Assembly: GCA_001940855.1 (NCBI GenBank)
Contig: MSGS01000059.1
Coordinates: forward strand, 1 to 64,000
Source of the DNA: Christensenellaceae bacterium Phil1
GTDB lineage: Bacteria > Bacillota > Clostridia > Christensenellales > CAG-138
DNA length: 64,000 nt
Direction of reading: 5' to 3'
Shown here: one piece after another, positions 3,827-16,717 of the stretch
Layout: each line of letters starts with the position of its first letter
How positions within the stretch are numbered: the stretch's first letter is position 1
Program-made: the position numbers and the translations under genes
Notes under the pieces: generated by a model
The model's input: the letters and a program-made list of their open reading frames with translations, nothing else
What the model was told of the DNA's origin: nothing
The model's database searches: none

Positions 3827-3856
3827 TTACTTTATGGGCTTCATAGTGGGGAACAG
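3827..3856 (-). pseudogene. Displaced 3' end of the original lysS
   Basis: On the minus strand this encodes LFPTMKPIK followed by a stop. The intact lysS 11.4 kb away ends LFPTMKPLDK. Only the last ten codons match; upstream codons are unrelated element sequence. This is the expected leftover when a site-specific element enters the 3' end of a gene and supplies a substitute end. The remnant still lies beside the presumed lysS terminator. Confidence 0.8.
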
Positions 3857-3857
3857 C
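3836..3857. repeat. Left attachment repeat of the element
   Basis: Reads GGGCTTCAT-A-GTGGGGAA-C-AGC. The right copy differs at two positions. It lies inside the displaced last codons of the original lysS. Confidence 0.8.
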
Positions 3858-3964
3858 GCAGAAAAAATACGCATCGCTTTATATGCCGTTAAAAGCCCGC
3901 TGTTCGCCATGTTTTCTGCACCATCCTTTCTGTATCTTCGCTTATCTTCCCGCTTCTTACCCAT

Positions 3965-3992
3965 GAAAATGGGTACAAAAGTGGGTAAAACC
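3965..3992. repeat. Left integrase arm-type site pair
   Basis: Contains AAAATGGGTACA followed by GTGGGTAAAA. The same two-part motif occurs near the right end at 15135-15161 in the same orientation. Such short direct repeats next to int resemble the arm (DR2-type) binding sites of Tn916-family integrases. The sequence match is direct; the role is inferred. Confidence 0.6.
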
Positions 3993-4008
3993 TGTAGAGA
4001 TAAAACCC

Positions 4009-5280
4009 TTAGCTAATCTTGATTTTGCCCTCCAAGTTGAAGATGCTTTCCTTTTTCTTTTCCTTGGTGGCTTCGCTGTACACATTCATTGTGGTTGAAA
4101 TGTCAGCGTGTCCCATAATCTCTTGAATGACCTTCAAATTGGTTTCGTTCTCACAAAACCGTGTGCAGAAAGTGTGTCTCAGATTATGGACGGTAAAGTG
4201 TGGCAGCAGCACCGGCTCCCTATGTTCTTCTTCCGCACAGGCGCTTTCCGCAGCGTTATAGTCACGGCTGATACGCTCGATTGCCCTGTTGATGCAGTGG
4301 GGAGAAATACAATCCCCGAACCTGTTCTGGAAGATGAACCCGCTATATCCATCGACAACGGATTGGTTAAAGCCATGCCGCATCTGGGACAACCGTGCTT
4401 CCAATAAAGCCTGTTTGACCTCTGAAAGCATTGGCACAATCCGCACACCCGCTTTTGTCTTCGGCGTGGTGATACGGAACCTACAGTCCCCGCCGTCTTC
4501 GCCCTGCCGATAAATCAGATTGTGGTTAATACTGATGATTTCGTCCTTGAAATCGCAATCTTCCCACCGCAACCCGATAACCTCACCGACCCGACAACCA
4601 GTCCCCAGCAACACCGTAAAAAGCGGCAACCAGTGCTGGTAGGTCTTATGTCCAGCAACATAGCTTACAAACGCTTCTTGCTGGGCTTCGGTCAAAGCGT
4701 GGCGTTTGGGCTTCTCCCAATCATGGCTTCGCTTGATTTCATTCATCACGCCATCGGTTGGGTTCAACCGAATTAGCCCGTCTCTGACCGCCACATTGAA
4801 TATGGGGTGAAGAATTGTATGGATAATCTCCATACTGTTTGGCTTGAAGCCAACATCGTTGATGAGGTGGATATAGAAGTTTTTCACATGGCTGTATCGG
4901 ATACTTCCAATGTTCATCTGCCCCAGCTCATCGTGTACATATTTCTTGTACATATACTTGTAGTTGGCTCTGGTAGAGTGCTTTATTTCATACTTGCTTT
5001 GAATGTAGCTATCAAAGAAGCTGTTAAGCGTTGTGCGATAAGCCGCATATCTGTTGATGTCATCGTCCACATCACGCAGAACCGCTTTCTCCATTTCTCG
5101 GAGAGACTTTTCACACCGCTTTCCAGCCGGTAAGCTATCTGTCTCCACCAATTTCCAACTGTATATGCTTCGGGTTTCCCCCTTTACATCTTTGTAACGG
5201 AACTCATACCGTCCGTCCTCACGCTGCCGTTCTCCTTGCCGGAGGTTTCTGCCTTTATTATCTTTTTTCTTAGTATTCAT
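4009..5280 (-). CDS. int: Tn916-type tyrosine integrase
   Basis: Site-specific recombinase that integrates and, with Xis, excises the element. The 423-residue protein has the three expected parts: an N-terminal arm-binding domain (about 1-75, EDGRYEFRYKDVKGE), a helical core-binding domain (about 85-180), and a catalytic domain with the conserved set GCRVGEVIGLRW (Arg, near 232), a Lys in TPKTKAGVRIV, HNLRH (His365, Arg368), His391 in GHADIST and the nucleophile Tyr401 in MNVYSEAT. All catalytic residues are intact. AAAGGAGAATCC precedes the ATG. It follows xis on the same strand with a hairpin between. The inferred target is the lysS 3' end. Confidence 0.95.
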   Translation of the reverse strand: MNTKKKDNKGRNLRQGERQREDGRYEFRYKDVKGETRSIYSWKLVETDSLPAGKRCEKSLREMEKAVLRDVDDDINRYAAYRTTLNSFFDSYIQSKYEIKHSTRANYKYMYKKYVHDELGQMNIGSIRYSHVKNFYIHLINDVGFKPNSMEIIHTILHPIFNVAVRDGLIRLNPTDGVMNEIKRSHDWEKPKRHALTEAQQEAFVSYVAGHKTYQHWLPLFTVLLGTGCRVGEVIGLRWEDCDFKDEIISINHNLIYRQGEDGGDCRFRITTPKTKAGVRIVPMLSEVKQALLEARLSQMRHGFNQSVVDGYSGFIFQNRFGDCISPHCINRAIERISRDYNAAESACAEEEHREPVLLPHFTVHNLRHTFCTRFCENETNLKVIQEIMGHADISTTMNVYSEATKEKKKESIFNLEGKIKIS

Positions 5281-5310
5281 GGATTCTCCTTTATTTCATT
5301 ACAAAGAGAA

Positions 5311-15068: not shown

Positions 15069-15073
15069 AAAAG

Positions 15074-15108
15074 ACCGCCCTTGCTATCACAGCAAAGGCG
15101 GTTTTCTT
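15074..15108 (+). terminator. Terminator after the surface protein
   Basis: ACCGCC-C-TTGCT, loop, AGCAA-A-GGCGGT with one internal mismatch, followed by TTTTCTTG. Five bases after the stop codon. Confidence 0.75.
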
Positions 15109-15134
15109 GTCCTATAAGCGTGTTCTTTTCAGTC

Positions 15135-15161
15135 CAAAATGGGTAAACCGTGGGTAAAAAC
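15135..15161. repeat. Right integrase arm-type site pair
   Basis: AAAATGGGTAAA followed by GTGGGTAAAAA, the counterpart of the left-end pair at 3965-3992, in the same orientation, 51 bases inside the right attachment repeat. Confidence 0.6.
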
Positions 15162-15199
15162 ACCGTCGTATTGCCCGCAAACCCGCATAAACACTGGGT

Positions 15200-16717
15200 T
15201 TATTTGTCCAGGGGCTTCATTGTGGGGAAGAGCAGCACGTCGCGTATGCTGGTCTCTCCGGTTAGCAGCATGACCATGCGGTCTATGCCTATGCCTATGC
15301 CGCCGGTGGGGGGCATGCCGTATTCAAGCGCCTGGCAGAAGTCCTCGTCTATCATCATGGCCTCGTCGTCGCCCTTGGCGCGCTCCATAGCCTGCTGCAC
15401 AAAGCGGCCGCGCTGGTCTATGGGGTCGTTCAGCTCACTGAAGGCGTTTGCGTATTCGTGGCCGGCAATGAACAGCTCAAAGCGTTCCGTTATGCCGCTT
15501 ACGCCCTTCTTGCGCTTGGAAAGCGGGGAGTTTTCCACGGGATAGTCTATTATGAACGTGGGCTGGATAAGCTTATCCTCAACGAATTCGTCGAACGCCA
15601 GCGCCAATAGCTTACCCTTGGTGGCTGTTTTGTCGTCAAAGGGCAGCTTTATCTTCTTTGCAAGCTCGCGCGCCTCTTCGTCCGTTGCGCAGCCGAGAAA
15701 GTCAGCATTTGCGTATTTCTTCACGGCGTCGTTCATGCTCAGCCGTGCAAACGGCGGGGTAAGGTCGATATCGTACTCGCCGTATTTTATCTTGGTGGTG
15801 CCGTTTACCAGCATGCAGCAGCGGGAGAACAGATCCTCGCACAGCTCCATCATTCCGTGGTAATCGGTATACGCCTGATATATCTCAATCGTGGTGAACT
15901 CGGGGTTATGCGTAGCGTCCATGCCCTCGTTGCGGAAAAGGCGGCCTATTTCATAAACCCTTTCAAGTCCGCCAACTATGCAGCGCTTGAGGTGCAGCTC
16001 CGTGGCGATGCGCAGATACATGTCTATATCCAGCGTATTGTGGTGCGTTATGAACGGCCTTGCGCTCGCGCCGGAGGCGGCGGAGTTGAGCACGGGGGTC
16101 TCGACCTCTATAAAGTCAAGCTCGTTCAGCCTCCTGCGTATCTCGGCCTCTATCTTGGCGCGCTTTATGAAGGTGTTTCGCACCTCGGGATTTACTATAA
16201 GGTCAACGCTGCGCTGGCGGTATCTCAGTTCCTGATCCTTCAGCCCGTGGAACTTTTCGGGCAGGGGACGGAGGGACTTTGAAAGCAGGGTAACGCTCGT
16301 TGCATGGATTGAAACCTCGCCCGTGCGGGTTTTGAATACCATGCCGGTAACGCCGATTATGTCGCCTATATCCATGGCCTTAAAGTCGGCATAGGATTCT
16401 TCGCCAACATCGTCGCGCTTTATGTAAACCTGAATATCGCCCTTGTAATCCAAAATGTGCGCAAAGGAAGCCTTGCCCATTATTCGCTTGGACATCATTC
16501 TGCCCGCAACGGTAACGGTTTTGCCTTCCATGGCGTCGTAATTTTCAATTATCTCTGTGCTGTAAGCATCGCGGTCGAACTTGACTATTTCAAAGGGATC
16601 CTTGCCGCGTTCCTGCAATGCCTTCAGCTTGTCCCGCCTTATCTGGAGCAGCTCGTTAAGCTCCTCGGCGGTTTGTTCGCGCTCCTCCACGGGAGCCTTA
16701 ATGTTGTTTTCTTCCAT
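15200..16717 (-). CDS. lysS: Lysyl-tRNA synthetase, class II, with element-supplied end
   Basis: Charges tRNA-Lys in the cytoplasm. The 505-residue protein has an N-terminal helical tail, an OB-fold anticodon domain (about 60-155) and the class II catalytic domain with FRNEGMD (motif 2) and GGIGIGIDRMVML (motif 3) near the C-terminus. Length is normal. The last ten codons (LFPTMKPLDK) come from the integrated element; the original ending lies at 3827-3856. The element thus preserves a functional synthetase. It is preceded by greA (29-base gap) on the same strand and shares its promoter. AGGAGACAGGCGCATAA precedes the ATG. Confidence 0.96.
   Translation of the reverse strand: MEENNIKAPVEEREQTAEELNELLQIRRDKLKALQERGKDPFEIVKFDRDAYSTEIIENYDAMEGKTVTVAGRMMSKRIMGKASFAHILDYKGDIQVYIKRDDVGEESYADFKAMDIGDIIGVTGMVFKTRTGEVSIHATSVTLLSKSLRPLPEKFHGLKDQELRYRQRSVDLIVNPEVRNTFIKRAKIEAEIRRRLNELDFIEVETPVLNSAASGASARPFITHHNTLDIDMYLRIATELHLKRCIVGGLERVYEIGRLFRNEGMDATHNPEFTTIEIYQAYTDYHGMMELCEDLFSRCCMLVNGTTKIKYGEYDIDLTPPFARLSMNDAVKKYANADFLGCATDEEARELAKKIKLPFDDKTATKGKLLALAFDEFVEDKLIQPTFIIDYPVENSPLSKRKKGVSGITERFELFIAGHEYANAFSELNDPIDQRGRFVQQAMERAKGDDEAMMIDEDFCQALEYGMPPTGGIGIGIDRMVMLLTGETSIRDVLLFPTMKPLDK
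15212..15233. repeat. Right attachment repeat of the element
   Basis: Reads GGGCTTCAT-T-GTGGGGAA-G-AGC inside the last codons of lysS; 20 of 22 bases match the left copy. Confidence 0.8.

Follow-up and report, generated by a model that had tools for sequence, protein, structure and literature searches.

A mobile element in the 3' end of lysS that very likely replaced the last codons of its target, and related elements that appear to exchange a whole LysRS domain

The 3' end of lysS, the gene for lysine--tRNA ligase (LysRS), was listed in 2016 as a target of integrative and conjugative elements (ICEs) of Streptococcus (PMC4701971), and ICEs in lysS have been described in S. suis (PMC7168690). 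These elements use a tyrosine integrase and are bounded by direct repeats of 13 or 17 bp (PMC4701971, PMC7168690); the vanD islands Tn6711-Tn6713 and ICEVREfm_vanD of enterococci occupy the same lysS 3' end (PMC8301612, PMC10765050). We analyzed positions 1 to 64,000 of contig MSGS01000059.1 of Christensenellaceae bacterium Phil1 (assembly GCA_001940855.1), a 64,000-bp stretch referred to below as the window, which carries an 11.4-kb element in the 3' end of lysS. A first-pass annotation of this DNA had regarded a synthetase gene as an unusual target, a view that the publications just cited, as far as their consulted parts go, do not bear out. In our reading, to which we assign a probability of roughly 0.88, the element was most likely inserted by its own integrase and very likely exchanged the LysRS ending IK for LDK. 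The genes and sites concerned are the following:

15200..16717, minus strand: lysS, lysine--tRNA ligase, 505 amino acids, ending LFPTMKPLDK-stop (stop at 15200-15202; the final LDK-stop very likely from the element)
15212..15233, minus strand: attachment-site (att) copy on the lysS side (repeat finder; core ATGAA at 15216-15220)
5370..5579, minus strand: xis, Tn916-type excisionase, 69 amino acids (PF09035, 5e-22)
4009..5280, minus strand: int, Tn916-type tyrosine recombinase, 423 amino acids (PF02920, 4.3e-27; PF00589, 1.7e-25)
3836..3857, minus strand: att copy on the proC side (repeat finder; core ATGAA at 3840-3844)
3827..3857, minus strand: severed lysS ending, very likely the original, ...FPTMKPIK-stop (stop at 3827-3829; same ending in protein P0142)
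3796..3821, no strand assigned: terminator-like hairpin with an 11-bp stem, between the severed end and proC (direct reading)

The last codons of lysS are present twice, the severed copy lying 11.4 kb downstream of the gene in its own direction. The repeat finder returned a 22-nt direct repeat, identical at 20 of 22 positions (91%), with copies 11,376 bp apart that bound the element. The best 22-mer match between the element ends, as scored by a script, is 20, while 20 shuffles reached only 13-16, which rules out chance as the origin of the two copies. Both endings could be read on the minus strand, LDK in the intact gene and IK-stop in the severed copy, and together with the repeat and the hairpin they agree with what the first-pass annotation had reported.

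Because the gene order is proC, severed lysS end, int, xis, cargo and lysS, the IK-stop belongs to the host and the LDK-stop to the element, if int made the insertion. The 504-residue LysRS P0142, whose body group is 98-100% identical to that of the window and whose own body is 99% identical to it, has the C-terminus MKPIK. For the other ending, the core through LDK-stop plus about 25 bases beyond recurs in locus L216 (60 bp, 87%), where LysRS is only 59% identical, and LDK-ending DNA is also found in L106 (52 bp, 88%) and L211 (62 bp, 81%). Since the LDK ending and some 25 following bases occur in other elements, they are part of the element. The sequence comparisons indicate that the element very likely replaced the host ending IK by its own LDK, the last three amino acids. 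The empty site that had been predicted, a lysS ending in LFPTMKPIK next to proC, has its counterpart in the P0142 protein but was not seen as DNA: a proC search of 61 genomes of the family (E 1e-40) gave matches in 19, with none in G001, the only congener included, where the DNA downstream of lysS differs from that of the window.

We examined whether other integrases of this kind sit at lysS, as had been anticipated, using two scans. The scan of viral contigs with the window integrase yielded 34 loci, of which 32 entered the count, the weak matches L096 and L097 being left out of both counts and tree; the scan of genome contigs with an integrase alignment yielded 79 loci, the best of 391 relatives, of which 77 entered the count (two of the 79 are not in the tree). 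For the 97 blind-scan loci with at least 350 bp behind int, we found the lysS core in frame and on the same strand behind int in 72 (54 of 72 genome loci and 18 of 25 viral loci). Another 5 have lysS itself, oppositely oriented, no more than 2.5 kb away; the other 20 have neither a severed lysS end nor an adjoining lysS. Seven loci were added by hand, namely five integrases beside detached domains, one in G047 and one in the window's own genome, bringing the totals to 78 with a severed end, 5 beside lysS and 21 with neither, out of 104. The core lies 129-383 bp behind int (median 170). As controls, the reverse strand gave 3 hits in 104 loci and shuffles 0.1 on average. In the integrase tree, the starred subclade containing the window integrase comprises 12 rows, all labelled lysS, by a core pattern that is one base short and hence undercounts. 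Tn916 itself has low target specificity; the family clusters at one site, and the element is therefore not a Tn916 element.

Several individual loci deserve mention. The related integrases of L121, L127, L140, L143 and L146 directly adjoin lysS and face it, a layout opposite to that of the window. L098 (G047:C13:14000-22279) is a lysS element of 5 kb in which a severed lysS end comes after a distant integrase (31%); its other frames appear by eye to be relaxase-like, cytosine methyltransferase-like and Xis-like. Scanning the viral contigs with a domain-ended LysRS (see below) gave a single locus, L285, in which the lysS ending is short, and scanning them with the domain alignment likewise gave one, L296, a domain-ended lysS on an 11.7-kb contig.

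To locate the exchange, we compared both ends of 14 loci, the window and 13 picked because remnant and lysS are on one contig, so that the rate is biased. The repeat expected at the ends of homologous elements is present in all 14. Identity of the two ends is concentrated in TTCCC.AC.ATGAA.CC, with variable positions falling mainly at third codon positions. From -8 to +4 around ATGAA, all 14 loci have matching ends apart from two third codon positions, which match in 11 and 8 loci; at +5, 8 of 14 still match. A serine on the lysS side of L155 and L162 faces the conserved proline of the severed side, which places the exchange upstream of the proline codon, within or beside ATGAA; the element would then supply that codon and all later ones. 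The supplied endings stop in frame no more than nine codons after MK in every one of the 14 loci. The proline of LFPTMKP is nearly universal; it is threonine (MKT) in P0139, P0143, P0144 and P0146, and serine (MKS) in P0141 and P0145 as well as in L155 and L162.

These comparisons provide good support for the following mechanism of end exchange. Judging from the anatomy of the loci, Int would join the att site of the element to TTCCC.AC.ATGAA.CC, which codes for the FPTMKP near the LysRS C-terminus, with a crossover within or beside ATGAA. From there on, the element would provide the remainder of lysS as an in-frame extension that brings its own stop codon, while the original lysS end would come to lie beyond the element, behind int. 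The endings that elements provide are not all alike; they consist either of a few codons or of a linker and a PF01588 domain of about 150 residues. According to the host and the element involved, an insertion would leave LysRS nearly unchanged in length or would cut a domain off, replace it or add one. The earlier description of a slightly altered LysRS understates the family, whose members appear to exchange a domain of some 150 residues.

In 7 of 28 readable lysS ends (from a set of 29 loci), LysRS runs past MKP into a linker and a domain. This ending matched the Pfam family PF01588 (tRNA_bind) in the four such proteins tested, and the solved structures closest to it are MetRS C-terminal domains and Trbp111. 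Loss of the domain can be followed at three linked loci. In L110, whose lysS terminates in MKPLDN-stop, a domain fragment of 155 residues, counted from FPTMKP, is found behind int at a distance of about 122 kb. The isolate [Clostridium] citroniae WAL-17108 (L179; now Enterocloster citroniae) has a lysS that terminates in MKSLEK-stop and, about 121 kb from it, a domain fragment of 159 residues that again follows int. In the third locus, L134, the domain is likewise cut off, its fragment standing behind int at about 14 kb. L108, L145 and L157 have a detached domain at the int locus and no lysS seen on the contig, and the fragment of L117 extends past the contig end. We saw no ribosome-binding site by eye before the core ATG in L108, L110, L134 or L157, so these four fragments are probably silent. 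At L128 (from 11557 onward), the severed ending behind int is a 225-residue frame that by eye resembles an HD-type hydrolase and looks like another kind of LysRS extension, not a tRNA-binding domain.

Candidates for replacement of one domain by another came from a search of 391 genomes belonging to the class, for which a single detached domain served as the query. At 1e-15, 281 genomes match, many of the matches being MetRS-like. A hand count of the listed rows with E up to 2e-35 gave 45 in long frames (568-717 amino acids), not every one of which was verified as LysRS, and 11 in frames shorter than 200 amino acids. An integrase match lies directly upstream of 8 of these 11 short frames; two others are at a contig edge, and G145 has a frame-broken detached domain with no integrase match upstream. 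In each of four genomes (G441, G423, G141 and G476), a domain-bearing lysS is located 47-106 kb from a detached domain on the same strand. A relaxase lies between the two in all four, as does an AAA_10 match just over the cut-off, with an additional strong one in G141, so that these elements are probably ICEs. In G476 (L267, G476:C3:4500-20000) the detached domain is present in two copies separated by 5.2 kb, both of them following an integrase match, so that this genome probably holds two lysS elements in tandem.

The best case of replacement is G423. In LysRS body it matches its congener G315 at 98% identity, but in the attached domain at only 72%. The domain displaced behind int in G423, on the other hand, is 96% identical to the G315 domain, from which it follows that the G423 domain was replaced; no displaced copy was seen in G315. 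The domain now attached in G423 matches those of other genera (97-99%). More generally, the attached domains of G423, G141, G476 and G405 are 96-99% identical even though the bodies of G423, G141 and G476 are only 73-78% identical to each other and that of G405 is 65% identical to each. In G441, G141 and G476 we infer replacement from the displaced copy, which is 75% identical to the attached one in G476 and 90% in G141; the attached domain of G441 is a mosaic, 85% identical to its own displaced copy and 87-88% to the element type. Named records of the G423-like LysRS are from Peptoniphilus; the ranking of this list favours the query's own domain, so that tail counts taken from it are biased. 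Omega is 0.02-0.08 in all six pairs of attached domains from G423, G141, G476 and G405, indicating that they are under purifying selection.

Addition of a domain is suggested by the relatives of the window's own LysRS, for which we considered the 120 best-listed of 2150, retrieved with a query lacking the domain and counted as cluster representatives, not strains. The native ending on the window's body appears to be short, as in P0142 and the severed end of the window. Linking bodies at 97% gives a group of 29 proteins including that of the window, with one IK ending, one LDK ending, two SLPNDK endings and 25 domains, so that three short endings and six domain families surround a single body. 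Tails are as little as 64% identical between proteins with 100% identical bodies. Conversely, tail family T1 is found on four body groups, and 90 pairs combine bodies below 95% identity with tails of at least 97%, the extreme being 78% and 99%. A possible DNA example of how a graft becomes fixed is G014, where lysS runs into a domain and a second core follows 306 bp later with the short ending MKPRA-stop; no integrase lies between the two cores. G014 is the only one of the genomes read with a second core behind a domain-ended lysS.

What the domain means for the element is a separate question. We think it rather likely that the supplied endings are passive repair of an essential gene, and that an ending is short or carries a domain simply according to the source host, the domain not being cargo. 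This account has the same mechanism as ours and denies only that the domain is cargo. It accommodates the in-frame stop in all 14 supplied endings and the resemblance of element-borne domains to host domains of the same tree region; for instance, the domains attached in G423, G141, G476 and G405 share 88-90% identity with the one displaced in G141. It accounts less readily for six domain families on bodies whose native ending seems short. The omega values mean that the domains are kept functional, but selection on LysRS itself would suffice for that.

A bolder and, in our judgement, somewhat unlikely interpretation is that the lysS 3' end is a natural domain-exchange port, the domain being selected cargo that changes the handling of tRNA-Lys in the recipient. 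Binding of tRNA 3' ends is a known property of the tRNA-binding OB fold, and synthetases fused to it show higher aminoacylation (PMC11286949). From this role of the fold, an effect of the domain on tRNA handling is predicted. If the port exists, elements with integrases of this family would dock tRNA-binding domains there, swap them between genera and strip them from LysRS, and one species would hold a library of forms. Anticodon nucleases cut tRNA-Lys; the domain might, for example, shield tRNA-Lys from those that bacteria use against invading DNA.

The remaining alternatives concern the exchange itself. It is very unlikely that LysRS endings spread by ordinary homologous recombination of lysS instead of by integrases. 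The G441 domain, with its host-like and element-like parts, looks like a product of such recombination. However, the switch occurs at the integrase core in 14 linked pairs, an integrase match lies directly upstream of 8 of the 9 detached domains with room for one, and 100% identical bodies carry 64% identical tails; purely homologous exchange was rejected on these three grounds. Chimeric assembly is still less probable as an explanation of the long LysRS forms grouped with that of the window. Most of them do come from metagenome sources with one member sequence each, but their contigs reach 151 kb, several of the forms recur on more than one contig, and the same architecture is present in near-complete genomes (G441 in one contig, G141 in three) and in named Peptoniphilus records, and we rejected chimeric assembly as their source. 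Finally, a fortuitous partial duplication with no tie to the integrase, as the short and imperfect repeat might suggest, is scarcely credible given that a severed end follows int in 78 of 104 loci, whereas the reverse-strand control has 3.

Several observations weigh against the reading we prefer, insertion of the elements by their own integrases with exchange of the lysS ending. Neither an excised circle nor empty-site DNA was observed for the window, and 21 of the 104 related integrases have no lysS end. In G067 (L112), lysS is domain-ended and the int-side end is short, the two being on different contigs; tandem elements or mixed strains could produce this mismatch. In G256 the attached and detached domains are nearly the same, as could result from mixed strains in one assembly. 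The G441 mosaic means that homologous exchange also acts. Grafting of domains around the window's body is inferred from proteins, and the stretches read of G030, G006, G007 and G024 contain no second core behind their domain-ended lysS.

The element carries the following further features, between the two ends of lysS:

3964..3988, minus strand: repeat pair TTTTACCCAC..ACCCATTTT near the int end, putative arm-type site
5883..7196, minus strand: phage-type protein, 437 amino acids, with a P-loop-like MGSGKT by eye (phrog_2467, 2.7e-66; no Pfam match)
7707..7931, minus strand: HicB-like protein, 74 amino acids, weakly NikA-like (PF05534, 4.4e-5; PF21983 below its cut-off)
8519..9367, plus strand: ArdC-like antirestriction protein (PF08401, 7e-26; PF18818, 2.4e-37)
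9828..10406, plus strand: second, short tyrosine recombinase, 192 amino acids, of a size like invertases (PF00589, 6e-19)
10449-11438 and 11435-12487, minus strand: two lipoprotein-like open reading frames (no Pfam match)
within 12351-12896, and 13055-13351, plus strand: two helix-turn-helix regulators (PF01381)
13362..15068, plus strand: surface-protein-like open reading frame, 568 amino acids, with a C-terminal hydrophobic stretch (by eye; PF02415 sub-threshold only)
15136..15159, minus strand: matching repeat pair TTTTACCCAC..ACCCATTTT near the lysS end, putative arm-type site

The same orientation of the repeat pair near both ends is as expected of integrase arm sites. The relaxase family PF03432, the only one searched, has 7 matches in the genome and the conjugative ATPase PF12846 (AAA_10) has 5, with none of either on the window's contig (C59); the element does not qualify as an ICE on these tests. 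Elsewhere in the genome (G000:C75:101023-102189) there is another Tn916-type integrase, 36% identical, 7.5 kb from a relaxase. Within the element, a 23-nt repeat family (7 copies, 69-91% alike) forms clusters at 7441-7582 and 9524-9703, which bracket the segment with the HicB-like and ArdC-like genes. Overlapping inverted and direct repeats (TATCAGTTAACTGATAT and relatives) at 7962-8051, between divergent genes, look operator-like. An Rfam search of the first 30 kb of the window returned tRNA-Thr only.

Aminoacyl-tRNA synthetases are commonly regarded as core enzymes that evolve slowly. In the case of LysRS, mobile DNA apparently exchanges the C-terminal part whole, at a single codon, both inside a species and across genera. 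If so, the elements provide a concrete route for the birth (compare G014) and loss of synthetase fusions, lysS endings become a marker of element occupancy, and the endings form a natural allele series for asking what an appended tRNA-binding domain does for a synthetase. With lysS already published as a target, what looks new is the scale; exchange of a whole LysRS domain by a mobile-element route also appears to be new, as the open-access papers searched contained, in their titles and the opening lines of their abstracts, nothing on an exchanged LysRS ending or domain via integrative elements or islands.

Compared with known systems, the Streptococcus ICEs are conjugative, whereas the window element has no relaxase match (in the PF03432 search), and the consulted parts of their descriptions do not mention a changed LysRS ending or domain (PMC4701971, PMC7168690). 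The vanD islands are flanked by a 13-bp repeat, TTCCC[g/a/c]AC[a/g]ATGA, which is the core of the window element (PMC8301612, PMC10765050). At 112-143 kb they are similar in size to the elements of L110 and L179 and far larger than that of the window. Unlike the latter they carry a resistance cluster, and in the consulted parts of the reports they are described as disrupting lysS, with no discussion of a replacement ending. Serine-integrase ICEs in rumA also alter the C terminus of their target by a reciprocal exchange of gene ends, but through another class of recombinase, and there int and target swap ends mutually (PMC4701971). For the domain, the comparison is with Trbp111 and the MetRS C-terminal OB fold, which belong to the same fold family as the LysRS domain endings; that domain occurs as a free protein or as part of MetRS and other synthetases (PMC11286949), whereas here the domain is borne by mobile elements and placed on LysRS. 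A parallel in kind is e14 in icd of E. coli, where a gene of an essential pathway receives its 3' end from the element and the original icd end (163 bp) remains at the element's far side (PMC6379469). In e14, as far as that source describes it, the supplied end differs from the original by a conservative replacement, and no domain is gained or lost, unlike in the lysS elements. Judged by its sequence, the window element fits the e14/icd kind, with lysS finishing in element sequence and its original end displaced.

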